Shown here one piece after another: positions 1-22,748 of a stretch of 64,000 nt of DNA. The translations under genes were made by a program, and so were the position numbers. Location: assembly GCA_021325675.1 (NCBI GenBank), contig JAJTCM010000008.1, forward strand, positions 62,001-126,000, given 5' to 3'. How positions within the stretch are numbered: the first letter of the stretch is position 1; the number at the start of each line of letters is the position of its first letter. The notes beneath the pieces were generated by a model that saw only the letters and a program-made list of their open reading frames with translations, ran no database searches and had not been told where the DNA came from. This DNA comes from Crocinitomicaceae bacterium (GTDB taxonomy: Bacteria > Bacteroidota > Bacteroidia > Flavobacteriales_D > Crocinitomicaceae).

Positions 1-1174
1 CACCGGCAAATAGTTTTGTTCCTTTCGAAACCAAGGTGTAAACAATGTCCCAGGAAGTATTCAGGGACGTCATCGGAAGCCCGCTATTGATCCGGTCCCA
101 GTTATTTCCGTTATCTGATGTGACAGCCAGGCCATTGGCAAAGGTCCCGGCGAATACTTTCCCGTTGACTGCCGCTAAAGAGAGGACATCACTGTGCGTC
201 AAACCGGTGTTTATCAGGTTCCAGCTTGAACCGCCATTGTTTGAAATATAGGCATTATTGTAGGCTGTTCCTGCATATAAATTGGTGCCGTCAGATCCCA
301 TACTTGTTACCCACAAGGTTTGCAAGCCGGTATTCATTTCAGCCCAGGTATCCCCGTTATCCGTTGAGCGGAAAATACCGCCACCGTAAATGGAACAGTA
401 GATATTATTTCCATGAACCAGCAAGCGGTCATTAACACTCCCCGATACGAGTATGTTTTCCCAGCTGGTACCTCCATTCGTTGAACGGAAAATTCCATAC
501 ATGGTGCTGGCGAAAATTGTTGTGCTGTTTTTTACCACAATAGAACCGATAGCGGTATCTGCGAGCGCCGACAAGGTCCACGACAAGCCTAAGTCTGACG
601 TAGAATAAATACCATAAGACGTTGCTGCAAAAATCGTAGATCCCAGAAAGTCAGTTGCGGCGAGCTCGTTTAAGCTGAACCCGCTTATATCCGTGCTCAG
701 GTCTATCCAGGTTGCGCCATTGTCGGAGGTCATTTCCATACCGGCAGCTGTTCCTGCAAAAATTCCGCTTTGCAATACAAGCAGGTCATTGATTTGCGGG
801 TTGACCATGTCGTTGGTGACGTTGGTCCAGTTCAGGCCGTTATCCGAAGACAAAAATGCCCCCGCGTTTGTACCAGCCATGAGCATCGTTCCTCCCACAC
901 CGAAAGTTGCAATGGAATTAACATAAGCTTCTTCGCCGTTTGGGTCTGAAGGGTCAATCATGCCGTTGTTCCTTTTATTCCAGTTTGTTCCGTTATCGGA
1001 AGATTGGAATAAACCACCGCCATTTGTTCCGGCATACACATTGGATGTCCCGAAAGCGAAACAGCGAATGGTGCTTCCTTCCGGGCCTTTGGTAAGCTCC
1101 CATTGGGCGTTCCCGGGGTTAAAACCTGTCCAAAGTGCAGCCAGCAGGCAACATAGTATAGTAATTTTTTTCAT
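1..1174 (-). CDS. Secreted BNR/sortilin-like beta-propeller protein (3' end outside window)
   Basis: Partial gene: the frame is open from the ATG at 1174 to the window edge, about 390 codons. The N-terminus is a signal peptide (MKKITILCCLLAALWTG, ending near an NAQ cleavage site). The rest is a chain of roughly 45-residue repeats with the pattern TSDNGxxW or STDNGxTW alternating with IFAGT or LYAGT strands, which is the BNR/sortilin propeller signature. Bacteroidota proteins of this type are usually exported and often end in a type IX sorting domain, but the C-terminus is not in the window. It is the fourth minus-strand gene after ompA-like, kinase and regulator, and has its own promoter with the shared palindrome at 1236. 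Substrate or partner cannot be read from the sequence. Confidence 0.85.
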   Translation of the reverse strand, partial: MKKITILCCLLAALWTGFNPGNAQWELTKGPEGSTIRCFAFGTSNVYAGTNGGGLFQSSDNGTNWNKRNNGMIDPSDPNGEEAYVNSIATFGVGGTMLMAGTNAGAFLSSDNGLNWTNVTNDMVNPQINDLLVLQSGIFAGTAAGMEMTSDNGATWIDLSTDISGFSLNELAATDFLGSTIFAATSYGIYSTSDLGLSWTLSALADTAIGSIVVKNSTTIFASTMYGIFRSTNGGTSWENILVSGSVNDRLLVHGNNIYCSIYGGGIFRSTDNGDTWAEMNTGLQTLWVTSMGSDGTNLYAGTAYNNAYISNNGGSSWNLINTGLTHSDVLSLAAVNGKVFAGTFANGLAVTSDNGNNWDRINSGLPMTSLNTSWDIVYTLVSKGTKLFAG

Positions 1175-1204: not shown

Positions 1205-1251
1205 CAAAGCTACAGCAAGCTAAAAGTTCACACAATAGAACAAAAGTTATA
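1205..1251 (-). promoter_or_regulatory. Promoter with TATAAC-N4-GTTATA-type palindrome
   Basis: On the minus strand a -7 element TAGCTTTG (1205-1212) is preceded by a TTG 20 nt upstream (-33 type). Directly before that is the palindrome TATAAC-TTTT-GTTCTA (1236-1251), one mismatch from perfect. The palindrome ends 23 nt from the -7 element. The same palindrome occurs before the response regulator and the ompA-like gene. Confidence 0.6.
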
Positions 1252-1308
1252 CCTGATCAGGGTCTGTAGGATCCACTCGGAAATCGCCCTGCAGACACTC
1301 TGATATTC

Positions 1309-1941
1309 TCAATTTTTATAGATTTTATTTAACGCTTCCGTACGGTTCTGAACATGGAGCTTTTCGTAGATGTTGTGAATGTGCTGCCGGACGGTACCGG
1401 TAGTAATGCTGAGCTTATCGGCCACTTCTTTGTAAAGGAAACCTTTGGCAAGCAATTCCATAATTTCTTTTTCGCGCTTGCTGAGCAGCTTGAAATCTTC
1501 GTTCACCTGGTGGTCTTTTTGCTGGAAGGTCGTTACGAGCTTGCGTGCGATCTGGGCGCTCATGGGTGAGCCTCCGTTATACAGCTCCACGATGGATTCG
1601 ATCATTTTCTGGCCCGGCGTATTTTTAAGCAGGTAACCCGAAGCGCCGGCCGCGAGGGCATCAAAAACCTGGTCGCTGTTTTCAAAAATGGTGAACATCA
1701 TAAACTGGGTTTGCGGACTGAGAGCCGAAGCCTGTTTTACACAGGAAATCCCGTCCATGCGCGGCAGGTTGATATCCATAATGACAATATCGGGCTGGAG
1801 GGCAGCAATGTCTTCGAGCGCATCTTCCGCACTTGAAAAGGAAGCCTGCAACTGCAATTCTGCCGATGAGCGAATGATGTTTTCCAGTTCCTGCCTGATC
1901 TCAGGCATGTCTTCCACGATACAAATGTTTATTTTCTTCAT
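1309..1941 (-). CDS. NarL/LuxR-family response regulator
   Basis: 210 aa. The receiver domain covers about residues 3-120 with acidic pair E10/D11, phospho-acceptor D56 (IVIMDINLP) and the conserved Lys near 105 (GYLLKN). A LuxR-type helix-turn-helix follows at about 148-205 (LSKREKEIMELLAKG, then VADKLSITTGTVRQHI). It is encoded just downstream of a HisKA_3 histidine kinase on the same strand, which is the usual partner arrangement, so it is probably phosphorylated by that kinase. The start is the ATG at 1941. A TAnnTTTG promoter and a perfect palindrome overlapping the kinase stop codon lie upstream, so it can be transcribed separately and may bind its own promoter. Confidence 0.92.
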   Translation of the reverse strand: MKKINICIVEDMPEIRQELENIIRSSAELQLQASFSSAEDALEDIAALQPDIVIMDINLPRMDGISCVKQASALSPQTQFMMFTIFENSDQVFDALAAGASGYLLKNTPGQKMIESIVELYNGGSPMSAQIARKLVTTFQQKDHQVNEDFKLLSKREKEIMELLAKGFLYKEVADKLSITTGTVRQHIHNIYEKLHVQNRTEALNKIYKN

Positions 1942-1961
1942 AGCTTCTTCCTTTTCGGGAA

Positions 1962-2008
1962 CAAAATTAAGCGAAGCCCGTCCTTCTTCCTATATAACCT
2001 TTGTTATA
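1962..2008 (-). promoter_or_regulatory. Response-regulator promoter with perfect TATAAC-N4-GTTATA palindrome
   Basis: The minus-strand -7 element TAATTTTG is at 1962-1969. The perfect palindrome TATAAC-AAAG-GTTATA is at 1993-2008, again exactly 23 nt from the -7 element, and overlaps the end of the kinase gene. The spacing would centre the site near -42 of the transcript, a classic activator position. Confidence 0.6.
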
Positions 2009-3944
2009 ACAGGCGTTCTTCCGCCAGGTGGATTTCGATTGTAAATGGTTTATAACTGCTGATTTTCCATTCGCCGCCAATTTCCTGCATGCGGTAAAGC
2101 ATATTTTTCATGCCGTTTCCGTAAGGGTTACCGTTGTTTTCCGGGATTCCGCGGCCATTGTCACTGATCGAAATTGCAATGCCTTTTTCAAAATTCATAC
2201 CCAGCTTCACCTGGCTGGCGCCGGAATGCTTGATGCAATTGTGCAGGGCTTCTTTTACCACCAGATATAAATTGCGGCGCTTAATACCTGAAATCGGCTG
2301 CTGCGGCACCTCATCCGGGATATCAAATACAAAATCGAGGTTAACGGAGCTGAGCAGTTGCCCCGATTGGTAACGAATGTAGCTGACAAAATCCTCGAGG
2401 TTGTCCTGTTCGAGGTTCATGGACCAGATAATTTCGTTCATCTGGTTGATCAGCAAACCCGATGTTTCGGCAACTTTGACCGTTTTTTCATTGCTGTAGC
2501 CGAGATTGTTGCTCAATAAATGGATCACGCTCAAACCTGAGCCGATTTCGTCGTGCATTTCCCGGGCGATGCGCTGCCGTTCTTTCTGCTGGCCTTCGAG
2601 CGTGGCTTTGAGCTCCCGCAATTCCCTGTCTTTTTCCAGGTCAAGCAATTTCTGCCGGTGCATTTTTTTGCGCTGCTTAGCCAGATAAAAAGCAAAAAGC
2701 AGGCATAAAACAAGGAAAACGACAATTCCCAGTGAAGCCAGGAGCCAGCTGTTTTTTTGGCGGATACTTTTTTCATTCAGCTCGATCTGCAGCTTGTTTT
2801 CAGCGATTTGCCTGTCCTTTTCGGCTGTTTTGTATTCTTTTTCAAGCCGGGCAACATGTTTCTTTTCCTCGATCCCGGACAATGAGTCGTTGAGGTGCAC
2901 GTATTTCTTCAAATACGTATAGGCCGAAGCATGCTTTCCTAATTTGGAGTGAATATCGGAAAGCAGCTTGTATTGCTGGCTGAGATTATTGTACACCTGG
3001 TACTGTTCGTTGATTTTCACGGCTTCGAGCGCATATCGGTTGGCTTCCGGGTAATTTTGTTTTTCGTAGTACACGACTGCCAGCGCATTCAGCGCATTTG
3101 CCAGGTTACTCGTAAAAGCAAAGCTTTCCGCATCTTTCCGGGCCTTTTCGAGCACGCGGACAGCATCATCGTATTTTTTCTGCTGGGTGTACACGTTCCC
3201 CAAACCAAGGTAAGCCAGGTTTTCCGTATAAATTTGGGGGTTAGTTTTGCAGATTTCCAGGCTTTGGCTGAAAGCGTCGTATGCTTTTTCGTATTTCCCA
3301 AGCGAAACGTAAGCACCGCCGAGGTTGGTCAATGTATAAGCAATGGCGCCCTGGTCGTTTTTTGTGCGGCTCAGGTCAATGGATTTCCGGAAATACTCAA
3401 TGGATTTGGGATAATCGCGCATGTTGAGATAAACCGTTCCCATATTCTGGTAGATCACATTCAGGTGCTCTTCCCGGCGGATCTTTTTAAAAATCCGGAC
3501 TGCCTGGAGAAAATAGACCATGGAAGAATCGAATTCCCCCATGTAATTGAACACATTCGCAATATTATTGCTGGTTTTGGCGCGCTCAAAGTCCAGGTGG
3601 TATTTTTCTGTCAGGACAAGCGCTTTACGGCTGAGCTCAAGGGATTCCTGCAGCTTGCCTTGTTCGTTGAGAATAGTGCCATACAGGCCGGCGTAGGTAA
3701 TCTGTCCTTTTATGTTGCCGGTTTTTTCGCTCAGCTTGCGTGCCTTTTTGTAGTAGAAGGCCGCACTGTCGGTATCGCTTTGTAATTTATACAGGCCATA
3801 ATCGTAATAAAGCCTGATTTTGGTGGTGTCTTCCTTTGTATTTCCGATTAACTGTAACAAGCTGTCCCCGACAGGGCCCTGCGCTGAAACAGGAAGAAAA
3901 AAAAGGCTGAAACTGAAAAATAATAAATAAATCTGCGCTTTCAT
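2004..3944 (-). CDS. TPR-containing sensor histidine kinase (HisKA_3 type)
   Basis: 646 aa. A signal peptide (about 1-21) is followed by a periplasmic TPR array (about 30-345, repeats of the form AxxYFxKALxL), a coiled region, one transmembrane helix near 400 (WLLASLGIVVFLVLCLLFAF) and a cytoplasmic kinase core. The dimerisation/phosphoacceptor segment reads RQRIAREMHDEIGSGLS (His near 462). The HATPase domain shows VVKEALHNCIKHS (N box) and ISDNGRGIPENN (G1 box). The HisKA_3 subtype pairs with NarL/LuxR regulators, and one follows immediately. The TPR array is the likely input domain; the stimulus is not evident. The ompA-like gene lies 45 bp upstream, so the three probably form a signalling locus. 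Confidence 0.92.
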   Translation of the reverse strand: MKAQIYLLFFSFSLFFLPVSAQGPVGDSLLQLIGNTKEDTTKIRLYYDYGLYKLQSDTDSAAFYYKKARKLSEKTGNIKGQITYAGLYGTILNEQGKLQESLELSRKALVLTEKYHLDFERAKTSNNIANVFNYMGEFDSSMVYFLQAVRIFKKIRREEHLNVIYQNMGTVYLNMRDYPKSIEYFRKSIDLSRTKNDQGAIAYTLTNLGGAYVSLGKYEKAYDAFSQSLEICKTNPQIYTENLAYLGLGNVYTQQKKYDDAVRVLEKARKDAESFAFTSNLANALNALAVVYYEKQNYPEANRYALEAVKINEQYQVYNNLSQQYKLLSDIHSKLGKHASAYTYLKKYVHLNDSLSGIEEKKHVARLEKEYKTAEKDRQIAENKLQIELNEKSIRQKNSWLLASLGIVVFLVLCLLFAFYLAKQRKKMHRQKLLDLEKDRELRELKATLEGQQKERQRIAREMHDEIGSGLSVIHLLSNNLGYSNEKTVKVAETSGLLINQMNEIIWSMNLEQDNLEDFVSYIRYQSGQLLSSVNLDFVFDIPDEVPQQPISGIKRRNLYLVVKEALHNCIKHSGASQVKLGMNFEKGIAISISDNGRGIPENNGNPYGNGMKNMLYRMQEIGGEWKISSYKPFTIEIHLAEERLL

Positions 3945-3989
3945 CAGAAGGCAAAATAAATACTATTTTTCAATTCAGCCTGAAGAAAG

Positions 3990-5063
3990 TTAAAGTTTGA
4001 TGAATTCTACGCGGCGGTTATTAGCCATTCCCTGGGAGCTTGTATTCGGGGAAAGCGGCTCACTTTCACCTTTTCCTTCCGGCTCCATGCGGGAAGCGTC
4101 AATCCCGAAATCCTTGGTGAGTGTTGCTTTTACGGAATTAGCCCTGCGCTTCGATAAATCCAGGTTGGCTTCGTCGGTTCCGTTGCTGTCTGTGTGGCCC
4201 ACGATTTTCACTTTTACATCCGGGTTATCTTTTAAAACCTGCGCAATTTCTTTCAGCGTCCCGTAAGATGTTGATTTGATTTTGTCGGAATTCACATCGA
4301 ACTGGATCCCGCGTGTAACGAGCTTTCCTTCTGTGATCAGCTTGCTGCGCATATCCGGCGCACCTACAGCCACCCGCAGGTTAGAAATGTAAATATTGTC
4401 CTCTTCGCTGTAAATTCCCGGGCTGATGCTCAAGGCATTGCACATTACACCGGACGGTATGAAAAGCGGAATGTCCACTACTTTTTCCTGGTCCATGTAC
4501 AAACGGCCGCGCTCTTTCTGTACCCAAAGCGCAAAATGGATCACTTTCCGGGCTTTGCCTGTGTACGTTTTTTTCTCAATCACGGATTCCAGGCCTGCCG
4601 GACCTGCATCAAGCCAGTTGTTGGCAACAATCGTGCTCGCCTGCACGCTGATCCCTGCACCGGAACCTTCCCGTCCGAAAAACTGGTAAGCGTTGCTTGC
4701 ATTGAAAACATCGAGCTCAATGTAATTAGTCGACTCGGTGTGATCTGTTGTAACAATAGCATCAAACTCAATCGTGTAATTCTCCGGGAAAGCTTTGATG
4801 TTTAATTGCGGACGATAACCGATTTCTGACGATAACCTCAGCCATTTGCCTTCTGTATTGCTCACTGTTACAAGCTCTCCGGAGCCGTTTGTGTTCCATG
4901 AAGCCGGGAAATCCCCTACTTCGCCCGAAGCAAAATTGTCATAAAAAAGCACTTCTTCGCCCGGGATGAAGTCGAATTTGGAATACGTTTTAAAGTCACT
5001 ATCGGTTTGGGCATTCAATCCCGCCATTGTCATTAAAAAAACTGCCGTACAGACTGGTTTCAT
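3990..5063 (-). CDS. OmpA-family outer-membrane protein with N-terminal lectin/LamG-like domain
   Basis: 357 aa with a signal peptide (about 1-19, ending LNAQ). Residues about 35-235 look like a beta-sandwich of lamin-G/lectin type (IEFDAIVTTD, IYISNLRVAV). The C-terminal 110 residues are an OmpA peptidoglycan-binding domain with IQFDVNSDKI, IVGHTDSNGT, LSKRRANSVK and MANNRRVEFIKL. It should sit in the outer membrane or periplasm and anchor to peptidoglycan. It is first in the minus-strand cluster with the TPR kinase and regulator and has the shared palindrome at 5123-5138. Ligand of the N-terminal domain unknown. Confidence 0.88.
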   Translation of the reverse strand: MKPVCTAVFLMTMAGLNAQTDSDFKTYSKFDFIPGEEVLFYDNFASGEVGDFPASWNTNGSGELVTVSNTEGKWLRLSSEIGYRPQLNIKAFPENYTIEFDAIVTTDHTESTNYIELDVFNASNAYQFFGREGSGAGISVQASTIVANNWLDAGPAGLESVIEKKTYTGKARKVIHFALWVQKERGRLYMDQEKVVDIPLFIPSGVMCNALSISPGIYSEEDNIYISNLRVAVGAPDMRSKLITEGKLVTRGIQFDVNSDKIKSTSYGTLKEIAQVLKDNPDVKVKIVGHTDSNGTDEANLDLSKRRANSVKATLTKDFGIDASRMEPEGKGESEPLSPNTSSQGMANNRRVEFIKL

Positions 5064-5086
5064 GGATTCAGATTTTAAATTTTAGG

Positions 5087-5138
5087 CGAAGATAAAAAGT
5101 TTTACAGACAGAAAAACGGAAGTATAACAAAAGTTATA
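5087..5138 (-). promoter_or_regulatory. ompA-like gene promoter region with perfect TATAAC-N4-GTTATA palindrome
   Basis: The palindrome TATAAC-TTTT-GTTATA (5123-5138, minus-strand reading) lies 60-75 nt before the ATG. The best -7 candidate is TATCTTCG (5087-5094), one mismatch from TAnnTTTG and 28 nt from the palindrome, so the spacing differs from the other two sites. Confidence 0.5.
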
Positions 5139-5437: not shown

Positions 5438-6145
5438 TCATTTAACGCGCTTGTCTGAGACCGGCTCGAGCCATTTGTGCTTACCGCAAACTGTGCAGTT
5501 TTTTCCGGGGACTGCTTCTTCTACATTACCGCAATAAATGCAGGCATATTCCTTGCCCGTTTCTGTTTGCTCGACGGCGTTCCTCAGTAATTCGGGAAAA
5601 ATCGGTAACCCGGGACGCACCTGGCTGTCTTCAAAAAAATAAATGCTGATCTCACCGGATGTTTCGAGATAAGCCCGGCGTACCTGCCCTAAGTGATCAA
5701 CGCTTTTAAGACGCAATTCTGCAAAAAACTTATCGTCCGGCAGCCTTACGCGCCTGTAATTTTCATAATCAATGCGCCCGTCCATGATCATGCGTATGGC
5801 TTTTCCCTCCAGCAAAACCTCTATTTTGTCACTTTTAGACGTAAAGCTGGTAATCATCCTGTAAAAAAGGATTACCACAATGATAACGATGATCCCAAAG
5901 ACAAGCGGTACGTAGTCGTAAAACATCGGGTCACCGGTAGCTGATCCCAGCGCGATCAATATTGCAAGCTCGAAGACAGAAAGCTGCTTGACGCCCCTTT
6001 TGCTTAAAAACTTGAGGGCAATAATCAGTACGAGAAACATTATGAAGGTCCGGAGGGCAATTTCTCCCCAATAAGACACGGGAATGTCTTCCTGGTAAAA
6101 AATCCGTTCCCAGTCAAAAGGCCGGAGGTGTTCGGTATCTTTCAT
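5438..6145 (-). CDS. DUF421 (YetF-like) membrane protein with C-terminal zinc ribbon
   Basis: 235 aa. Three transmembrane helices lie in the first 105 residues (FIMFLVLIIALKFLSKRG; VFELAILIALGSATGD; VFGIIVIIVVILFYRMI). A cytoplasmic YetF/DUF421 domain follows with KSDKIEVLLEGKAIRMI and LRLKSVDHLGQVRRAYLE. The C-terminus carries C-x2-C-x10-C-x2-C (CIYCGNVEEAVPGKNCTVC), a rubredoxin-like zinc ribbon that goes beyond the basic DUF421 domain. The family role is poorly known; YetF proteins have been tied to spore and stress biology in Bacillus. Metal binding by the four Cys is inferred. Confidence 0.82.
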   Translation of the reverse strand: MKDTEHLRPFDWERIFYQEDIPVSYWGEIALRTFIMFLVLIIALKFLSKRGVKQLSVFELAILIALGSATGDPMFYDYVPLVFGIIVIIVVILFYRMITSFTSKSDKIEVLLEGKAIRMIMDGRIDYENYRRVRLPDDKFFAELRLKSVDHLGQVRRAYLETSGEISIYFFEDSQVRPGLPIFPELLRNAVEQTETGKEYACIYCGNVEEAVPGKNCTVCGKHKWLEPVSDKRVK

Positions 6146-6928: not shown

Positions 6929-7154
6929 CGTATTTAGATTTAATTGTATTTAAGGTCAAAGATCAGCTTCTTTTTTTGTTGATGTGTTATAAAATTCCAC
7001 GTGTATCTTGCATCATTCTTAATAAATGCCCGATATTAACAAGTTTTGGGGAAATCGCCCTGGAAACGGAATATCCCGCTAAACAAAGGTTTACGTGTCT
7101 TTCCGCAGAGTTTATGGAGAAAAGAAATAAAATACTACTTTTAGTTGTCGAATA

Positions 7155-7231
7155 ACAACCATAAGTAGCGTGATTACAACCATAAGTGTTTGTTTTTTCT
7201 TGGATACGGGGAATGGATGCCGGTACCTTTG
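7155..7231 (+). promoter_or_regulatory. Promoter with two direct-repeat operators for the XRE-pentapeptide gene
   Basis: A -33 TTG (7200-7202) and -7 TACCTTTG (7224-7231) are 21 nt apart, matching the Bacteroidota consensus. Just upstream are two identical 12-mers ACAACCATAAGT at 7155-7166 and 7176-7187, 21 bp apart (two helical turns), so bound proteins would lie on one face of the DNA. Confidence 0.65.
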
Positions 7232-7260: not shown

Positions 7261-8157
7261 ATGTTAAACACGAAAATCATTGGCAATAAAATCGCCGAAG
7301 CAAGAAAGAAGGTAAACATTTCCCAGTCACAGCTTGCGCAAAGCCTGTTCATCAGCCCACAGGCCGTTGGAAAGTGGGAGCGCGGGGAATCCATGCCGGA
7401 TATTATCACGCTTAACCGCCTGGCCGAACTCCTGGGCGTCGACCTTAACTATTTTTCAGATAGCTTCCCTTCTGCAGCAGCTGAAAATGTACCCGCTGAC
7501 CCTATCGTCCGGAACCAGGCTGAATTATCTCCGGGAAAAGAGGAAAAGCTCGCCTGGGATATGTCCCGCGGTAATTGGTTGGACGCAGACTTTTCAGGCC
7601 TGAAAAACCTGAACGAAAAATTCAGCTCCTCTAATATGCAGCGCTGCCTGTTTACCGGTTCGGACCTGTCGGGGCTTCTCCTCAGCGGAAATAACGTGGA
7701 CCGCTGCGATTTTTCGGGATCCAACATCAGCAACAGCCACATAAAACGCTCCCATCTAGCCAATAACGTATTCAGGGACTGCTCACTGAATGCAGCTGAA
7801 TTTTCAGGCAGCTACGTTTACGCCTGTGATTTTACCGCTGCCGATTTTACAGGAATGACCCTTAAATCCGGTGGCTTCGAGAAAAATACGCTGACGAATA
7901 CTGTTTTAAACCGGACCTCTTTCATAGAATCGCACCTTGTCGACCTTGTTTTTGAAGGCACGGTCGAAAACTGTTATTTTGAAAATTGCTCCTTCAAGCG
8001 TGTGACATTCCGCAACGCGAAGCTGGTCAACACTTTCTTTAAAAACAAAAGCCTGAAACAGATCCGCTTCGTTGACTGCCAGGCCGACCGCATGACTTAC
8101 GAATTCCTCAAAAACGGGAAAGCCGATCTGAGCGGGTTGAGCCTGATAACGGAGTAA
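7261..8157 (+). CDS. XRE-family regulator fused to pentapeptide-repeat domain
   Basis: 298 aa. The N-terminal HTH_XRE domain (about 5-62) reads NKIAEARKKVNISQSQLAQ and ISPQAVGKWERGESMPDI. After an alanine-rich linker, residues about 100-295 are repeats of five with a central hydrophobic residue (CLFTGSDLSGLLLSG; CDFTAADFTGMTL), the right-handed beta-helix of pentapeptide proteins. The HTH should bind DNA, plausibly the twin 12-mers in its own promoter. The helix could be a protein-interaction surface. The fusion occurs elsewhere in Bacteroidota, but its target is not known to me. Single gene, with a terminator at 8178. Confidence 0.85.
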   Translation: MLNTKIIGNKIAEARKKVNISQSQLAQSLFISPQAVGKWERGESMPDIITLNRLAELLGVDLNYFSDSFPSAAAENVPADPIVRNQAELSPGKEEKLAWDMSRGNWLDADFSGLKNLNEKFSSSNMQRCLFTGSDLSGLLLSGNNVDRCDFSGSNISNSHIKRSHLANNVFRDCSLNAAEFSGSYVYACDFTAADFTGMTLKSGGFEKNTLTNTVLNRTSFIESHLVDLVFEGTVENCYFENCSFKRVTFRNAKLVNTFFKNKSLKQIRFVDCQADRMTYEFLKNGKADLSGLSLITE

Positions 8158-8234: not shown

Positions 8235-8603
8235 CTACTGCCTTTCCACCCGGAGCTTCTCGCGGTGCATTTCGCCCCAGCTGACGAGCGAATCAAGCAC
8301 CTGTTCCAGGGTATCGCTGTAGCCTGTCAGCTCATATTCAATCACAACCGGGCTTTCGGTATACACCATTCGCCTGACGAAACCATTCAGCTCAAGCTCT
8401 TTAAGTTCATGGGATAAAACCCGGGCCGAGATTCCGGGAACTGTCCGCTGGATCTCATTGAAACGTTTTTTGCCGTCCTGCAAGGCAATGATAATACGGA
8501 GCTTCCATTTGCCGCCAATCACATAAAGGGCGTCGCCGAGCGCGTTGAGCTTGCCGTTGCATGCAGCCGGGGAGTGTACCTGTTTTGCTTCAATTGTATT
8601 CAT
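8235..8603 (-). CDS. HxlR-family winged-helix transcriptional regulator
   Basis: 122 aa with the HxlR signature: a Cys near the N-terminus (SPAACNGKLNALGDALYVIG), KWKLRIIIALQDGKKRFNEI, VPGISARVLSHELKELELNG and the wing YTESPVVIEYELTGYSDTL. Such proteins bind palindromic sites as dimers, and some sense electrophiles or redox state through the N-terminal Cys. It is divergent from a DoxX-type gene, with a GGTTAG-CA-CTAACC palindrome between them, so it probably controls that gene and itself. Confidence 0.9.
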   Translation of the reverse strand: MNTIEAKQVHSPAACNGKLNALGDALYVIGGKWKLRIIIALQDGKKRFNEIQRTVPGISARVLSHELKELELNGFVRRMVYTESPVVIEYELTGYSDTLEQVLDSLVSWGEMHREKLRVERQ

Positions 8604-8626
8604 AATCCGGGAGTTACTTACTTACA

Positions 8627-8685
8627 GGTTAGCACTAACCTTTTGTATACTGCTAACTTTTAATAAGCAAATGTACGTAATTTTG
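8627..8685 (+). promoter_or_regulatory. HxlR/DoxX divergent control region
   Basis: Palindrome GGTTAG-CA-CTAACC at 8627-8640, with a further half site GCTAAC at 8652. The -7 element TAATTTTG for the DoxX gene is at 8678-8685. The palindrome type matches sites bound by HxlR regulators. Confidence 0.55.
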
Positions 8686-8714: not shown

Positions 8715-9086
8715 ATGAAAGCAACAAACATTACGTACTGGGCTTCGTCGTCAGTCGTGGCGCTGATGATGACATTTTCAGCTTACATGTATTTAACACA
8801 ACCAATGATGAAAGCCAATTTTGAGCTGATGGGCTTCAACGATTCCTTCCGCATTGAGCTGGCCATTGCCAAACTGATCGGAGCCGTTGTTCTCCTCGCC
8901 CCGGCCGGCGCCCGCCTGAAAGAATGGGCTTACGCAGGCTTCACGATCACCTTTATTTCAGCGATTGTGACCCACATCAGCTCCGGCCACCCGGTTCAAA
9001 CCGCAGTTATGCCGGCCATTTTCCTTGCGATCCTCGGAGTTTCCTGGTATACGAACCGGAAAAGACAAGTAAGCGTCGCTTTGTAA
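8715..9086 (+). CDS. DoxX-like integral membrane protein
   Basis: 123 aa and four predicted membrane segments: ASSSVVALMMTFSAYMYL, LAIAKLIGAVVLLAP, GFTITFISAIVTHISSG and AVMPAIFLAILGVSWY. The pattern FELMGFNDSFRIELAIAKLIG is typical of DoxX-like/DUF4383-type small membrane proteins that neighbour HxlR regulators. Biochemical role unresolved; family members are linked to redox stress and quinone chemistry. Probably repressed by the divergent HxlR. Confidence 0.8.
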   Translation: MKATNITYWASSSVVALMMTFSAYMYLTQPMMKANFELMGFNDSFRIELAIAKLIGAVVLLAPAGARLKEWAYAGFTITFISAIVTHISSGHPVQTAVMPAIFLAILGVSWYTNRKRQVSVAL

Positions 9087-9289: not shown

Positions 9290-10954
9290 TTAATTTAATG
9301 TGTATTCGGTTTTTTCTTCTAATTCAGTAGTAATTTGAGCCATTATGCTTTCTATATCATCAGAACCTTTTTCAAAAGCTAGTATCAATTCTTTTTCAAG
9401 TTGTGATGGTTTGTAAACTTTGCCATTTAACAACTTAAAATGTTTATTAAGAAAATCAATTTCATTCGGTTTAACTTTATAAAATTTATATTTTTCATTG
9501 ATAAAAGCTACTAGTTTTTCTCTGAATATTTTTTGCGTATCTTTTTTGAAATTGCCTTTCAATGTTGAATTTCTTGAGAGGTAAGCAGAAAGCACAAACA
9601 GAAAATTGATGTTGTACGATTGAACAAATAGTGTATCTCTGTCGAAAAGGCGGTTCTTAAAATGAAATTGCATTATCGGTTTTCCAGTCTCTCTCAAGTA
9701 CGATTTAGAAAAATCAAAATCTTTATTTACAAAAGCAGAAATAAAAAAATTCGGTGTAATGTTATAACCTTCCGTTTCATTTTCTCTGTATCTGATTCTT
9801 TGATCTAAATTTCCTGAATTAAATAAATCAATATTGTACTGAATTACATTCTTTGCATAAGTTAATTGTTTCGCTTTTGAATTTTTTCCTACGCTATTTT
9901 GAGGTCTGTAATATTTGCTATCACCAACAAAATAGATCTCATCTTCGATCAGAAGCGATTTGTATTTGTAAATATGGTCAACTTGTTTTCCGTCTGCATG
10001 ATTCTTTAGTTCAGGGAATAATGAACTGTCTCCGATTAAATCATCAATCATATCCTCAAACACAATATTGAAATCCTTGATTAAAAGAATCTCTTCTATT
10101 TGTTTCTTAGATTGAGTTCGTTCACTTCGCTCAAAATAAGTAAAAAGCAAGTTGTACAAACAAATCATTTTGTCTGAAAAATATTTGTATTTAATACTTT
10201 TTAGTAATCTGCATCCTCTTTTTAATGCCATTTCAAACTGGTGATCTTTTATCAGGTTGTAATTTTGAGGAATTTGAAAATTAAAGGCGTATTTTTCTCG
10301 AATGTGATTAAGCGTTGAATAAAAAAGTATCAATAATTCTTCATCATCATTTGCCCTCTTTCTTTTGGTTGCTAAATCGACATAAATTGGTTGATTATTT
10401 TGAATGATTGGCTGCTTCTTGTTGATCGTTTTGTGCCAACTGATTTTGTTTTGTTGAGAGTGAGCTGTTTTTGCAATGAACGTAAATAAGTCCTGATTTT
10501 CTTTATGAAATCTTAATAAACTTAAAATAATATCAAGTTCGGTACTTGAATTCTCATCCAAGTTGGTTACAATCTGATTAATAAATTGATTCTCTGAAAT
10601 CGAATTGTAAAAATGCCTTTTGTTAAATTGTTGAACTGCCCGATATAACCAAGTTGAAATTTCAAAAATTAGTTTGTCTTTGCCTGACTCTGATAACCTA
10701 CTTGTAGTTTCAAATGTTGGATTGATTAAGGATTCTGGAGTAAATTCGTCAAATGCTAAATTATTTTCGTTGATAAAAACTTTCGGAAATATAATTATAG
10801 CATCTCCCTTTCCGTCATTTATTTGTGGATTGAAATAATATCCAACAAAGTTGATTTTTGAGTAAATACCATTTACAGGAAAATAGTATCTTTCAGTTAA
10901 AACTTTTGAAAGGGCTTCCGTTGTGTAATGATATTCTTCAAATAATATTATCAT
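9290..10954 (-). CDS. McrC/LlaJI-type restriction nuclease subunit
   Basis: 554 aa, last gene of the restriction operon. The central part carries a PD-(D/E)XK-type nuclease motif: VDHIYK followed by IYFVGDSKYYR (D-S-K, residues about 341-343), as in the McrC family where the acidic-x-Lys motif cleaves DNA. The N-terminal 150 residues are rich in aromatic and charged residues and may contact the AAA+ partner. McrC proteins stimulate GTP hydrolysis by McrB and cut DNA after translocation. The start ATG overlaps the mcrB stop by 4 nt (ATGA), so the two are translationally coupled. Longer than E. coli McrC (about 350 aa). AT-rich, unlike the core genome. Confidence 0.82.
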   Translation of the reverse strand: MIILFEEYHYTTEALSKVLTERYYFPVNGIYSKINFVGYYFNPQINDGKGDAIIIFPKVFINENNLAFDEFTPESLINPTFETTSRLSESGKDKLIFEISTWLYRAVQQFNKRHFYNSISENQFINQIVTNLDENSSTELDIILSLLRFHKENQDLFTFIAKTAHSQQNKISWHKTINKKQPIIQNNQPIYVDLATKRKRANDDEELLILFYSTLNHIREKYAFNFQIPQNYNLIKDHQFEMALKRGCRLLKSIKYKYFSDKMICLYNLLFTYFERSERTQSKKQIEEILLIKDFNIVFEDMIDDLIGDSSLFPELKNHADGKQVDHIYKYKSLLIEDEIYFVGDSKYYRPQNSVGKNSKAKQLTYAKNVIQYNIDLFNSGNLDQRIRYRENETEGYNITPNFFISAFVNKDFDFSKSYLRETGKPIMQFHFKNRLFDRDTLFVQSYNINFLFVLSAYLSRNSTLKGNFKKDTQKIFREKLVAFINEKYKFYKVKPNEIDFLNKHFKLLNGKVYKPSQLEKELILAFEKGSDDIESIMAQITTELEEKTEYTLN

Positions 10955-12795
10955 TGCTCAGACTCTACTCCGTTGAATTTCAAAAATGCTTCTATAATGT
11001 CCGTTGCATTGTCGTTGTAAAGTTCTCCAAATTGAAAATCTATTGGATTATTTTCTTCAATTTCATATTTGAAAATTGAACTTTGAGTTCCAAATTCATC
11101 CTTGTAGACTTCTGACCATAAATAAAACAAAACCTTAGACCTAAATTGGTCAAACGTTATATTTCCGTCCTTGGGATTTACAAAGCGATTTCCAAGTTGC
11201 TTATCCTCGCTTCCCGTCAGCTCTTTTATTTTTGGATTGATGTTTTCTATGAATTTCCTCCAACTATATATACTTTCTCCAATTAAAACCTTAAATAAAT
11301 CTGCATCTCTATAATCGATAGGGACAAACTTCCAATCCCACCGTCTTTTGAATGCACTATCCATTGGGAATAAAGATTGGTCAGACGTGTTCATTGTTGC
11401 ATATATATACAGATTCTTGGGAAGCTTAATTGAGTTAAATTTTTCACTGATTGATTTCGTTTTTTCATTATAAAAACCAATATCAACCTTACCCAACAAT
11501 ACTGATTTAATATGTTCAGAAAGTTCTGTAGAAACTTCGACTTCATATTTAGAATAACCAGTTTCGTCTCGGTCTAGTGATTGAAATAAATCACCAAATA
11601 TTTGAGCGCAGTTACCCCTGTTAATCTCTTCAATTATTAAGAAGTATGGTTGTTCAGGATTTAACCAAGCATTACAATATGCTTTTGTAAATGCTTGTGG
11701 GATAAAATCGTATCTTATGTTGTCCCCATTCATTACAGGTCTGTAACTACCTACAAACGAGTGATAATCAGTTTCTGGATGAAATGTTACTCTTGTGCTT
11801 TTTTCTTTTTCCGTCTCATTATTTACTTCCCAACTTTTTCCAGTTCCAGGCGAGCCATAATAAATGATTTGATGAGGTATATTGTCCAGATTTTGAGGGT
11901 TGTTCGGTAGCTCATTCTCTTTTTCTACTTCAACAATCTCAATAGTTTTAGGTGTCAGGTCTAATTGATTGGCAACTTTACTTCTGTAATCTTTATAATC
12001 ACCTAACAAAGCCTGTTCCCTTAAACTAACATTATCACCATCAATTTTCAGATAAGGATGTAGATTATGAGAAAAGAGTGATTTTAAATTTCTTAAAGTT
12101 CCCTTAATCTCTTTTGCGCCTTTTAAATCTACAAAATCTGTGTCATTGTTTATTAAATCATAAATGCCTTCCTGTTGGAAAAAAACTTCTGTATTATCGT
12201 TTAACCAAGTTTTGTATAGAGTATCTTCCGTAAAGATTAATAAAGCTGACTTTAACTTAGCTTCCAAATTTTGACTTTCGGGCTCGATAGGCTCATTAAA
12301 AATCCAACGATATAAAACTGTTTTAGCTGACTCAGTTAAATCATGATTATCATCACTTAATATGGATTTTAATAAGATTAGATTTGATGTGAAATTTAGT
12401 GATTTAGGGACTCGAACTCCACCTGTTCTTTCCTGACTTGAGGAGCTGGAATTTATTGCTTTAACTTTCGCAAATTTCAAAACTATTTGAAGTGAAACCT
12501 GTAATGGTTCAAGCTGCATTGAAACTAAAGAATTATCCGTTCTTAATCTATCAATGTTTTGTTCATTATAATTATTGATGGAAGAAAAGTAACTCTTCAT
12601 CAAATCAATCAATTCGTCTTTGATTTGAATTGTATTCCCTGATTGAACAGAATAGTCAAGATATTCCTTTTCATCGTTCAAGAGATATAGCAAAAATGTC
12701 AAAGCAATCAGTTCTCTGGGATTAGGTAATGATGATCCAACAGCCAATTTTGGATCTATTGGAGTCCTTCTCTTGATATTATTTGGTAAACTCAT
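10951..12795 (-). CDS. McrB-like AAA+ NTPase of restriction system
   Basis: 614 aa. The N-terminal half (1 to about 300) is unlike known domains to my eye and is the probable DNA-recognition part. The AAA+ module follows: Walker A GSPGTGKS near 313, Walker B YFLIIEEINRGNCAQIFGDL near 387, and sensor MNTSDQSLFPMDSAFKRRWD near 467. This MNTSD/RRWD signature is specific to McrB-type GTPases. It should form a hexameric ring driving the McrC-like nuclease. It overlaps the upstream methyltransferase by 17 nt and the downstream nuclease gene by 4 nt, consistent with one operon. LlaJI R1 has the same design. Confidence 0.9.
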   Translation of the reverse strand: MSLPNNIKRRTPIDPKLAVGSSLPNPRELIALTFLLYLLNDEKEYLDYSVQSGNTIQIKDELIDLMKSYFSSINNYNEQNIDRLRTDNSLVSMQLEPLQVSLQIVLKFAKVKAINSSSSSQERTGGVRVPKSLNFTSNLILLKSILSDDNHDLTESAKTVLYRWIFNEPIEPESQNLEAKLKSALLIFTEDTLYKTWLNDNTEVFFQQEGIYDLINNDTDFVDLKGAKEIKGTLRNLKSLFSHNLHPYLKIDGDNVSLREQALLGDYKDYRSKVANQLDLTPKTIEIVEVEKENELPNNPQNLDNIPHQIIYYGSPGTGKSWEVNNETEKEKSTRVTFHPETDYHSFVGSYRPVMNGDNIRYDFIPQAFTKAYCNAWLNPEQPYFLIIEEINRGNCAQIFGDLFQSLDRDETGYSKYEVEVSTELSEHIKSVLLGKVDIGFYNEKTKSISEKFNSIKLPKNLYIYATMNTSDQSLFPMDSAFKRRWDWKFVPIDYRDADLFKVLIGESIYSWRKFIENINPKIKELTGSEDKQLGNRFVNPKDGNITFDQFRSKVLFYLWSEVYKDEFGTQSSIFKYEIEENNPIDFQFGELYNDNATDIIEAFLKFNGVESEQ

Positions 12796-13840
12796 TGTCG
12801 TTATCTCTTTTAATTATTTTAGCAATGGAATAAGCCAACAAAGGCGGGACGGCATTTCCAACCTGCTTTAGTTGAGATGATTTTGTGCCGTAAAAAATAA
12901 ATCTATCCGGAAAAGATTGCAATCTTGCACCTTCTCTAACTGTGATACATCTATCTAAAATAGGATGAGTAAACATACCCGATGACGGCGTGTCAAATCG
13001 TGTCGTTATTGTTGGAGCAAATTCATCTTCCTTTAATCTTGACCAAGTTCCTGAATAAATTGATTTTGTTCTATATTCTTCTGGTAAAACTTCTTTTCCT
13101 TTACCTTTCGGAATCATTGAAAGTTTTTTTAATGCTAATTCACTATGTTTAGTTGCTTGATGATTATAAATCCCTTTAGAACCTTTTCTCATTAATTTCT
13201 GATAATCAGATAAAGGTCCTAAAGGATAATTGTAAACTTCTTTTCCTTCGCCTGAATTGATTTTCGGCAAGTCATAAATTGCATCTGCAATACTTGTTTT
13301 TTTATTGTTTGTTTTAGGAAGTAGAAGTTTTTCAGTTCCTCTCTTTCCTAAAAAAAAAGCTCTTTTTCTATTTTGTGGAACACCAAAATTTGATGCTGTT
13401 AAAATATCGACATCAACTTCATAACCTAAATCATTGAATGCACAGATGATTTCATTTTTGAAGAAGCCATTTGACGTTGTGGTTATATTAGGTACATTTT
13501 CCAGCAAAAAATATTTAGGTTCGAAAGCCTTAACAAATTCAATAAAATATTTAAAAAGATAGTTTCGTTCATCGTCCAAACTTAACCTTTTTCCTTTTTG
13601 AGAAAAGCCTTGACAAGGCGGGCCTCCAATTACAACGTCAACATTCTTATACTTTTTGGCTAAATCATCAATGTTCAAGGTCTGTATATCAGTTGAAAAA
13701 ACATCTGTATTTGGATGATTCAATTTATATGTGCTTGCAATAGATTCATCGTGTTCAATTGCAAATACTGTTTCAAAGTTGGCCATTGCGAAACCAAAGG
13801 AAAGTCCGCCAACTCCTGCAAATAAGTCAACTACTCTCAT
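12779..13840 (-). CDS. DNA (cytosine-5)-methyltransferase
   Basis: 353 aa with the ordered C5-MTase motifs: I VDLFAGVGGLSFGF (AdoMet binding, about 4-17), IV GGPPCQGFSQKG with catalytic C76, VI YFLLENVPN, VIII QNRKRAFFLG, a short target-recognition region about 230-285, IX ARLQSFPDRF and X QVGNAVPPLL. It protects one strand or site class against the operon's McrBC-like restriction complex. Start ATG at 13840 overlaps the upstream methyltransferase gene by 4 nt. Target sequence cannot be deduced here. Confidence 0.93.
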   Translation of the reverse strand: MRVVDLFAGVGGLSFGFAMANFETVFAIEHDESIASTYKLNHPNTDVFSTDIQTLNIDDLAKKYKNVDVVIGGPPCQGFSQKGKRLSLDDERNYLFKYFIEFVKAFEPKYFLLENVPNITTTSNGFFKNEIICAFNDLGYEVDVDILTASNFGVPQNRKRAFFLGKRGTEKLLLPKTNNKKTSIADAIYDLPKINSGEGKEVYNYPLGPLSDYQKLMRKGSKGIYNHQATKHSELALKKLSMIPKGKGKEVLPEEYRTKSIYSGTWSRLKEDEFAPTITTRFDTPSSGMFTHPILDRCITVREGARLQSFPDRFIFYGTKSSQLKQVGNAVPPLLAYSIAKIIKRDNDNEFTK

Positions 13841-14712
13841 TTTATAGCAATATCTTGAATTCTATTTTTAGAAATATTGTAATATTCTTCATTTAGTTCG
13901 ATCCCAATAAATTGTCTGTTATTCATTTCACAACTTACACCAGTTGAACCACTCCCCATAAACGGGTCACATACTACATCGCCTTCATTTGAAAGAACAT
14001 TTGTAAAATGATTTAAAACGTCAATTGGTTTTTGAGTAGGGTGTTTCCCAAACTTTTTTTCGCTTTGAGTAGTTAAAGACGATTCTACAAAATCGTGAAG
14101 CACTTTATTTTCATTATTGAATGTACCAGTTGTTCCTTCATTAATGAAATAAACCCAAGCTTCAGTTGAGTTCACAAAATGCAAATTCATATTTCGTGGC
14201 ATTGGATTAGTTTTATGCCAAACTCCAACAGTTTTGTAATAGAAATTATTTTCTTCTGCAAGATTAATAATAGATTCGATTTTCATTAAAGACATAAATA
14301 GCAATAAGCTACCTTTTTTTCGTAAAATGCGATTACTTTCCTTAAAGAAAGCACTCATTTTCATTAACCATTCCTCGTATTCTAAATCATCCCAACCAGC
14401 ATAAGCAAATTGATTTTCCCTCATTTTGACTAGGTTTGTGCCTCGTTTATGCATAAAAGAACCTAAATTGAAAGGAGGGTCGGTAAGAATTAAATCAACG
14501 CTCCCACTTTCAATACTTGACATTAGTTCTTCACAATCTCCATTTGCAATTTTAGAATTAGTTGTAATTGATTCAAATTGAGTGTGTGTATTAGTAATTA
14601 CATTTTGATTGAACAAATTGTATCTTGGTGAATACAAACTATTAGGTTCTTCGAGAAAATTTTGTTTTATCGAAGGCTCACTTACAATATTTATATTCAA
14701 TGTGCTTTTCAT
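13837..14712 (-). CDS. Beta-class DNA amino-methyltransferase (probably N6-adenine)
   Basis: 291 aa. Motif IV LILTDPPFNLG (DPPF at 78-81) comes first and the AdoMet motif VVCDPFMGSGSTG comes near the C-terminus, followed by FIGIELNEEYY. That order defines the beta class. DPPF rather than SPPY favours N6-adenine over N4-cytosine, but this is not certain. Together with the C5 enzyme it forms a pair expected for an asymmetric recognition site whose two strands need separate methylation. In LlaJI, as I recall, both methylases are C5-type, so the mixed pair here is notable. Four nt separate it from the controller gene. Confidence 0.9.
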   Translation of the reverse strand: MKSTLNINIVSEPSIKQNFLEEPNSLYSPRYNLFNQNVITNTHTQFESITTNSKIANGDCEELMSSIESGSVDLILTDPPFNLGSFMHKRGTNLVKMRENQFAYAGWDDLEYEEWLMKMSAFFKESNRILRKKGSLLLFMSLMKIESIINLAEENNFYYKTVGVWHKTNPMPRNMNLHFVNSTEAWVYFINEGTTGTFNNENKVLHDFVESSLTTQSEKKFGKHPTQKPIDVLNHFTNVLSNEGDVVCDPFMGSGSTGVSCEMNNRQFIGIELNEEYYNISKNRIQDIAIK

Positions 14713-21164: not shown

Positions 21165-22748
21165 TTATTTATAAAATTTATCAATTACCGCTTTTAAAGA
21201 TTTGAAATCATTTTCATCCATAAGTTGTAATAATTTTTGTCTATCGTAAAATACATCCAATTGTTTTGACTTAAAATCTCCTTTATTATATTTTATAAGT
21301 CTTTCAAGAGCATCTTTTTCATATTTACCTGAAGTAATGTATGATGCTTTAAAACTATATTCGTCCGCAATATCTGAAGAAAATTTTTCTTTAATGAATG
21401 GAAGCGTTCTATTAAAAAACCAACTAATTGTGTTTTTAGTTTCAGAATTCCCCAGAGGGATTTCGTGATTTGCATGATTACCTTTTAACTCAATTATAAT
21501 AATTTCTTTTGGGTTATTTGATCTTATGACGTAATCATATTCATAGACAACTTTTGTTTCAACATCATCTTTATTAATAATCCTATAATAACGGTAATTT
21601 GGAGTAATGGCCGCATTAGGATAACAATTTTTTAAAAGTTGATAAATCATAACTTCAAACAAGATTCCTTTAATCGCCTTTAACTGCTCCTCTTGCCCTG
21701 ATAACTCAATAGAATTTAGAATTTCATCAACCTTCTGTTGAAAATCTCTTTTTTCAATGGATTGACTAGATTGAAGACTATTCAAATTATCAATTATTTC
21801 AAAAATTTTTGATCCATATATAGACCCAATATCGTAGCATAAAAACCCCAAACTTTTAGTCTTATTCAAAACGAACCTTGAGCATTCTTTATATACAATT
21901 ATCGGAAGTACCTTCCGTTGACCATTTTTTACAGAATTCAAATTAATTTGAATTCTGTTATAAAATCCGTCTAAATCAAAACTTTCATATTCCCTATTTA
22001 TAACAATGTCTAAAACGACTAAGGTCTGTTTATCAAAAGTCTTTGAGTTTTTAGCCGATCCCGGATTGATACCAGTAGTTTTCGTATAACCGATTGCATC
22101 CCAAACAAGATTATTATGTTTTGCTCCGCTCCAGGGTGTCTTTTTGTTTCTAAAAATTGCGCTATTATTATCAATTATATTCGATTTTTTGAACCATTGT
22201 ACAATATCATTTACCAGCATTGTATCGATAAGCATCTTAGAATAATGAATACTTACTAAATGTTCACAATCTCGTTCTTTGCTTTTTAATACGATATAGT
22301 TGATCCCGTTTCTATCCTTATACTCATAAACTATTTGTCGTTCTTTAAGGATAATTAGTAAATCGTCTAAATAATCTACTTTACTACTAGACTTTTCTAA
22401 TGGAGAAGATGAAATTTTTAATGCCTCATAATATGATAATATTCCTTCGTTTCTGTCTAACGCTTCCAATAATCTATATAGCGATGGTCTATACTTTTTG
22501 CTTATTTCCTTTATCCTATCTTTCGACAAAACTTGTCCCGGTAAAAAATATACAAATTGACCCTTGCTAAATGAAAGTGGTTTTGAAGAAATGATTATCT
22601 CCTTCGCCGCTGAACGTTCAATAATTTTACGAGCATTACTTTCTGTGATACCAAATTTGGAAATTAACTCTTTACACAATTCACTACTCACTAAGAATTT
22701 ACCTTTTCTAAGAGTTTTGATTAAAAAAGTATCGTATTTATTTTCCAT
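21165..22748 (-). CDS. Winged-helix protein with PD-(D/E)XK-like nuclease domain
   Basis: 527 aa. The N-terminus is winged-helix-like (LIKTLRKGKFLVSSELCKEL, then FGITESNARKIIERSAAKEI). The C-terminal third has the layout of a restriction-type nuclease: a helix with Glu (GILFEVMIYQLLKN), then YEYDYVIRS and IIIIELKGNH (Asp, then E-x-K about 13 residues on, near 405-420), then a Ser/Thr-rich helix. The middle is unassigned. No methyltransferase partner adjoins it. It fits a stand-alone DNA-targeting defence or repair nuclease, but that is inference. Confidence 0.75.
   Translation of the reverse strand: MENKYDTFLIKTLRKGKFLVSSELCKELISKFGITESNARKIIERSAAKEIIISSKPLSFSKGQFVYFLPGQVLSKDRIKEISKKYRPSLYRLLEALDRNEGILSYYEALKISSSPLEKSSSKVDYLDDLLIILKERQIVYEYKDRNGINYIVLKSKERDCEHLVSIHYSKMLIDTMLVNDIVQWFKKSNIIDNNSAIFRNKKTPWSGAKHNNLVWDAIGYTKTTGINPGSAKNSKTFDKQTLVVLDIVINREYESFDLDGFYNRIQINLNSVKNGQRKVLPIIVYKECSRFVLNKTKSLGFLCYDIGSIYGSKIFEIIDNLNSLQSSQSIEKRDFQQKVDEILNSIELSGQEEQLKAIKGILFEVMIYQLLKNCYPNAAITPNYRYYRIINKDDVETKVVYEYDYVIRSNNPKEIIIIELKGNHANHEIPLGNSETKNTISWFFNRTLPFIKEKFSSDIADEYSFKASYITSGKYEKDALERLIKYNKGDFKSKQLDVFYDRQKLLQLMDENDFKSLKAVIDKFYK

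Follow-up and report, generated by a model that had tools for sequence, protein, structure and literature searches.

Bacteroidota encode many pairs of a kinase and a LuxR-type response regulator, the targets of which are, to our knowledge, mostly unknown. For NarL, after which the NarL/FixJ (LuxR-type) regulators are named, the heptamer of the operator has the consensus TACYYMT. In Bacteroides, two-component control of adjacent surface genes is exerted by the HTCS, whose motifs were obtained by comparative genomics; these are one-piece proteins that carry an AraC-type domain and are associated with direct-repeat motifs with a long spacer, and the words LuxR and NarL are absent from the main text of that report (PMC3878776). 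The sigma-A promoters of Flavobacterium contain a TAnnTTTG box at -12 to -5, according to a mapping of start sites and sigma motifs in the main text of which the word LuxR does not occur (PMC9723704).

The locus described here lies in a window of 64,000 nucleotides of DNA from a Crocinitomicaceae bacterium, and it resembles class-II systems of the NarL/FixJ type in its receiver and GerE domains, its 16-bp inverted repeat centered near -43.5 and its predicted autoregulation. It differs from them in that its promoters are of the Bacteroidota TAnnTTTG type and its predicted regulon consists of envelope and secreted proteins. The sites read TATAAC-N4-GTTATA or GTTCTA and not TACYYMT, which sets the locus apart from the NarL/NarP regulon. 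It shares with the HTCS the control of neighboring surface genes, but it employs a separate kinase and LuxR-type regulator and a short inverted repeat. In minus-strand order, the features are as follows.

5123..5138 (-), putative operator before the ompA-like gene, TATAAC-TTTT-GTTATA, a perfect palindrome
5087..5094 (-), best-matching TAnnTTTG-like box before the ompA-like gene, TATCTTCG, 28 nt after the operator
3990..5063 (-), gene for an OmpA-family envelope protein (Pfam scan), separated by 45 nt from the kinase gene that follows it
2004..3944 (-), gene for a TPR-HisKA_3 histidine kinase (Pfam scan), adjoining the regulator gene
1993..2008 (-), putative operator before the response regulator gene, TATAAC-AAAG-GTTATA, with the kinase stop codon (2004-2006) inside it
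1962..1969 (-), TAnnTTTG box TAATTTTG, 23 nt after the regulator operator
1309..1941 (-), gene for a NarL/FixJ-type response regulator (Pfam Response_reg and GerE) with the recognition helix GTVRQHIHNIYEKL, letters QHIH
1236..1251 (-), putative operator before the propeller gene, TATAAC-TTTT-GTTCTA, followed by TTG; the top-scoring copy in the window
1205..1212 (-), TAnnTTTG box TAGCTTTG, 23 nt after the propeller operator
1..1174 (-), gene for a secreted beta-propeller protein of 703 aa, running leftwards from 1174 and 938 bases past the left edge of the window
outside the window (-), second gene for a protein with a type IX secretion tail (273 aa), 25 nt downstream of the propeller gene

By Pfam scan, the regulator comprises an N-terminal receiver domain (PF00072, E 5.3e-23) and a C-terminal GerE/LuxR helix-turn-helix (PF00196, E 4.6e-17), the kinase comprises PF07730 (HisKA_3) and HATPase_c, and the propeller protein combines Sortilin-Vps10/BNR matches with the type IX secretion tail Por_Secre_tail (PF18962, E 6.4e-12). 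The palindromes had been noticed in a preliminary description of this DNA as perfect copies at 1993-2008 and 5123-5138 and a copy with one mismatch at 1236-1251, and both coordinates and letters proved exact. They had been placed 50-80 nt ahead of start codons, which agrees with gaps of 51 nt for the regulator, 61 nt for the propeller and 59 nt for the ompA-like gene, and the 23-nt distance to a TAnnTTTG element, claimed for two cases, is found at the propeller and regulator genes. The ompA-like gene is the exception; its 28-nt gap is about half a helical turn off. If the box occupies -12 to -5, as in Flavobacterium (PMC9723704), a gap of 23 nt puts the operator at about -51 to -36, with its center at -43.5, and the consensus TTG then covers about -35 to -33. 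Bacteroides fragilis has a -33 TTTG at the corresponding place, while Flavobacterium johnsoniae yielded no such -33 motif (PMC7366714). The regulator's own promoter in the window has no TTG. The center had previously been put near -42, as an activator position; this estimate was close, while activation is still something that we infer from position.

Orthologous regulators were collected from three samples: the family (11 of 240 genomes at E <= 1e-50, own genome included), the order (21 of 399 at E <= 1e-52, own genome included) and titled species genomes, from which 55 of the best 80 of 418 loci were used after 24 loci outside Bacteroidota or titled just "bacterium" and the truncated locus L079 had been dropped. 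With 23 loci from the genome searches, the analysed set came to 78 (L024-L027 excluded), forming 58 clusters at 80% identity, or 82 once a phylum-wide search was added, in which 83 of 395 genomes matched and 28 new loci were read. A position weight matrix was trained on the upstream regions of the 13 clusters of QHIH regulators, excluding the genome under study. The motif found, ATAACtTTtGTTCTATTG, lies 49-55 nt upstream of the start codon in 12 of these 13 clusters; in the thirteenth, L106, neither the motif search nor the leave-one-out test found a good operator site. The consensus from the other species is ATAAC-TTTT-GTTCTATTG. Thus the motif first written as TATAAC-N4-GTTATA is real, but its true form is ATAAC-N4-GTTCTATTG, and the supposedly mismatched propeller copy is the best one.

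When the matrix was run over both strands of the window, the propeller site ranked first (26.7 of a possible 26.9), the ompA site second (15.1) and the regulator site third (12.5), all three on the strand of their genes. In 3.58 Mb of simulated sequence the maximum was 17.9, and it is very unlikely that the propeller site is a chance match. About 75 places in such a simulated genome reach a score of 12, and an unrelated place in the window, at 22150, scores 12.0, a small margin below the regulator site; the latter is therefore convincing solely in combination with its perfect palindrome, its position and its spacing.

The presence of the site before orthologous regulators, on which the preliminary description had staked its proposal, follows the recognition helix. 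In leave-one-out tests, an operator was predicted 49-66 nt before the regulator's own start in 14 of 15 QHIH clusters, as is expected of autoregulation, and in 0 of 67 clusters with other helices; the QHIH grouping was post hoc, chosen once the data were in view. Among the 28 phylum-wide loci, the sole QHIH regulator, L171, scores 19.7 and the other 27 score at most 9.1; since L171 is a near relative of the training row L057, this is a modest test for the QHIH group and a better one for the 27 others. On a receiver-domain tree built from few columns, the QHIH rows are clustered, with three label changes and a possible single origin, so that the 15 clusters are not fully independent. Outside the operator and the -7 box, the aligned promoters show almost no conservation.

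Further copies surround the QHIH regulators of other genomes. In 13 QHIH loci (128,199 bases), 22 sites reach a score of at least 14, where simulations give 0.85; 12 are in the regulators' own promoters, which served for training, and 10, outside the training set, precede neighboring genes in seven loci. A TAnnTTTG box (match of at least 5/6) stands exactly 23 nt away in 15 of the 22, and among the other gaps from 8 to 44 nt, only 22, 25 and 29 nt occur, at one site each. The neighboring genes begin mostly with signal-peptide-like or lipoprotein starts, judged by eye, and most have no Pfam family, but their products include an outer-membrane barrel and an OmpA protein. The latter is encoded in L063 (a Chitinophagaceae MAG) by an ompA-like gene that follows the QHIH regulator and has an operator of its own scoring 16.9; its product is 43% identical to the OmpA protein of the window over 369 columns, which backs the window's ompA site despite its odd spacing. 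A general linkage of this type of ompA gene to such regulators was also considered. Homologs at E <= 1e-40 occur in 29 of 296 genomes of the phylum (own genome included), and in 30 ompA loci with 1.5-kb flanks, a LuxR-type helix was found nearby in one (L211); the claim of general linkage was dropped. A rough operator scan of the 29 foreign ompA loci gave no convincing site, but the scan is weak, as it fails to pick up even the operator and regulator of the window itself.

Two other arrangements were observed in these genomes. In Mucilaginibacter pankratovii (L065), operators at L065:3042 and L065:5618 flank the kinase and regulator genes and point outward, one preceding a 203-aa lipoprotein-like gene and the other sitting after the regulator. 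Two Flavobacteriales MAGs (L089 and L095) have what looks like a doubled cassette, in which the QHIH regulator gene, a 612-aa ORF and the gene for another, related regulator come one after the other.

The same geometry recurs with other letters where the helix is different. Eight genomes of two sister genera encode regulators that are 53-56% identical to this one and carry the helix STVKRHLN. There, TSAACC-N4-GGTTSA (at most one mismatch) precedes the regulator in 7/8 and the next gene, for a predicted lipoprotein, in 8/8 (seven exact); before the lipoprotein gene it is always 23 nt ahead of a perfect TAnnTTTG, and in the regulator promoter the box at 23 nt is weaker, of the GTAATTTG or TTAATTTG kind. 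A single kinase of this group, that of L042, was scanned and is of the propeller-Y_Y_Y type, which implies that sensor and target can vary while the layout persists. In leave-one-out tests, KRHLN regulators have their own motif in 4/5 clusters and RTHIR regulators have TACTACTTTNRTGTGA in 12/19, and matches of one group's matrix to other helices are rare (QHIH 0/67, RTHIR 3/63, KRHLN 4/77, three of the last on QHIH rows). The regulator L182 is preceded by TCACAC-TTTT-ATGCGA and its neighbor, a further ompA copy in genome G454, by the perfect 6-4-6 operator TCGCAT-TTTA-ATGCGA; both lie 23 nt ahead of the box, which reads TAGCTTAG at the ompA gene. For the helix groups RTHIY, RKHVY and RKHVQ (4-5 clusters each), motif searches gave no convincing result; the search by helix took in the named groups, leaving aside 10 "other" clusters and two with RSHAR. 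A generic scan of the 58 clusters for any palindrome (at least 5/6 pairs) with a box (at least 5/6) yielded six sequences at 23 nt, against a null mean of 0.56 per gap and a maximum of 4 at any gap in 40 shuffles; with palindromes of at least 4 pairs, it yielded 16, against 3.65 and a maximum of 11. It returned the right position with a modest statistic and was superseded by the helix-wise motifs.

It is tempting to propose a rule for this clade of separate kinase/LuxR-type pairs throughout Bacteroidota, to which we give an even chance: the promoters of the regulator and of the envelope genes that it controls would each bear a 16-bp palindrome of 6-4-6 form, set exactly 23 nt ahead of TAnnTTTG, and the letters alone would vary with the helix. 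Under the same odds, taken jointly with the rule, the pairs would be QHIH with TATAAC/GTTCTA, KRHLN with TSAACC/GGTTSA, RTHIR with a TACTAC/GTNGTA-like form and the L182 type with TCGCAT/ATGCGA.

In the genome itself (3,574,664 bases), the only two perfect palindromes are both in this locus, 3.1 kb apart, where base composition predicts 0.63. With at most one mismatch, the palindrome occurs at 15 places (the two perfect ones and 13 others, one of which is in the locus), against 31 for a reversed control pattern, so that one-mismatch matches as such are not enriched; eight of the 12 places elsewhere fall within mechanically called ORFs of more than 400 aa. The expectation that hits would not be random was accordingly borne out for the perfect sites and not for the one-mismatch sites. 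The composite TATAACN4GTTNTA-N23-TANNTTTG has three perfect matches, where base composition predicts 0.002, followed by 0 with one, 5 with two and 26 with three mismatches; the total of 34 compares with 33 for the reversed control, and the perfect matches alone stand out. Two of them, both in the window, shaped the pattern, leaving the third as the sole independent match. It lies on another contig (C4:238438-238484, minus strand, inside L005), upstream of a gene for a 230-aa protein without a Pfam match, called a lipoprotein by eye. This gene is a predicted fourth member of the regulon, which, judged from the DNA, would extend beyond what had been described to this lipoprotein and possibly the kinase gene. 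Among the 39 other relatives searched, neither this protein (E <= 1e-15) nor the propeller protein (E <= 1e-60) has a match. The exact palindrome was also sought in four congeners and is perfect in none (0/4), a result that is uninformative because the regulator has a match at E <= 1e-40 in one of the four only, G003, with 45% identity and the helix DTVRTHIY instead of QHIH.

Several other readings of the three sites may be weighed against these observations. The window contains four copies of TATAAC-N4-GTTATA with at most two mismatches against 2.5 expected, an ordinary count, and together with the commoner reversed control this is what chance AT-rich palindromes would look like; but a matrix built without this genome ranks the same three sites first, and the motif is conserved in other genera, which makes chance a barely credible explanation. 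That a paralogous regulator or some other DNA-binding protein of the genome uses the sites is hardly probable. About ten more LuxR-type regulators are encoded in the genome (ten of the paralogous loci read are of this type and one is of another), but the QHIH helix is found in none of the 11 loci read, of 16 listed, the other five being weaker matches, and in other genomes the operator tracks QHIH regulators and sits in their own promoters. The motif usually stands at a fixed spacing ahead of TAnnTTTG and includes a TTG at the -33 place, as would an extended promoter element for a particular sigma factor (TATAAC...TATTG plus TAnnTTTG). Such an element is very improbable, since the letters vary with the recognition helix of the neighboring regulator while the box stays the same, the motif is near to a two-fold palindrome, and just three perfect composites exist in this genome.

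A more serious rival, albeit an unlikely one, is that the regulator binds these same sites as a repressor, covering the -33 region and blocking polymerase in negative autoregulation. At about -35 to -33, the TTG directly adjoins the operator, and position alone would suit either sign of control. A repressor that blocks polymerase would presumably accept varied positions, whereas the box stands precisely 23 nt away at 15 of the 22 sites around QHIH regulators and likewise ahead of the second gene in 8/8 STVKRHLN-type loci; in addition, the missing TTG in the regulator's promoter is as expected of a promoter that depends on an activator. The fixed distance between operator and box favors a class-II activator, and abutment on the -35/-33 element at this spacing is found at two of the three window sites and at 15 of 22 elsewhere.

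The reading that we prefer, with a probability of about 0.86, is that the three sites are operators of the regulator encoded at 1309-1941, which would act as a class-II activator of its own gene and of envelope genes. The identity of the sites, their conservation in orthologous promoters, their geometry and their association with the recognition helix are all features of the sequences compared. The adjacent response regulator very probably recognizes the palindrome as its address on the DNA, and the earlier attribution to this NarL/LuxR regulator is, short of proof, strongly supported by the matrix from other species and the QHIH association. Autoregulation together with control of the T9SS-tailed propeller protein and the OmpA-like protein, as proposed at the outset, appears to be the best reading, with the regulator most likely activating its own gene along with cell-surface genes in the neighborhood.

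A feasible model, in which direct binding and phosphorylation dependence are what we infer, may be that the TPR kinase (2004-3944) feeds phosphate to the regulator and that the phosphorylated dimer binds the 16-bp inverted repeat, with TAAC in the left arm, GTTCTA or GTTATA as the right arm and a 4-bp spacer. With the operator centered near -43.5, where it abuts the -33 element and leaves 23 nt to the TAnnTTTG box, the bound regulator would most likely act as a class-II activator. The genes driven would be those for the regulator, the propeller protein and the type IX cargo protein that follows it, the ompA-like protein and the C4 lipoprotein. The ompA-like gene is just 45 nt from the kinase gene, so that the kinase may be co-regulated; perhaps the ompA operator drives it too, and a weak promoter of the kinase's own is conceivable.

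Elsewhere in the window, an LlaJI-like restriction-modification island occupies 9290-14712, with genes for RE_LlaJI, an AAA protein with matches to type II restriction enzymes, a C5 methylase and an N6/N4 methylase. Two direct copies of ACAACCATAAGT, recognized by eye, lie 21 nt apart at 7155-7166 and 7176-7187, and an inverted, imperfect one lies at 7137-7148; these repeats precede a gene for an HTH and pentapeptide-repeat protein (7261-8157) and are possibly the operator of that regulator itself. The palindrome AGGTTAGCACTAACCT at 8626-8641, between an HxlR regulator gene (8235-8603, minus strand) and a divergent ORF at 8715, is a possible HxlR operator. The DUF421/YetF protein encoded at 5438-6145 has two C-terminal CxxC pairs, zinc-ribbon-like, beyond its Pfam domain.

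Systems of this general kind, in which a two-component pair regulates itself and a local envelope regulon, are known. No earlier description of the operator was found in the open-licence literature on Bacteroidetes LuxR/NarL regulators, which is weak evidence of absence; within the literature searched, what is new is the family of operators, the constant position that they take on Bacteroidota promoters and an apparent correspondence between helix and operator. In this locus, the prediction is a regulon of envelope and secreted proteins. An operator of the regulator's own that keeps a constant distance to the -7 box offers a direct and checkable path from a regulator to its targets, and the pairs of helix and operator letters are open to testing through helix swaps. 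If the proposed rule is true, one would find the address of a whole regulon in the promoter of its regulator gene, and the regulons of many uncharacterised two-component systems would become readable from sequence.
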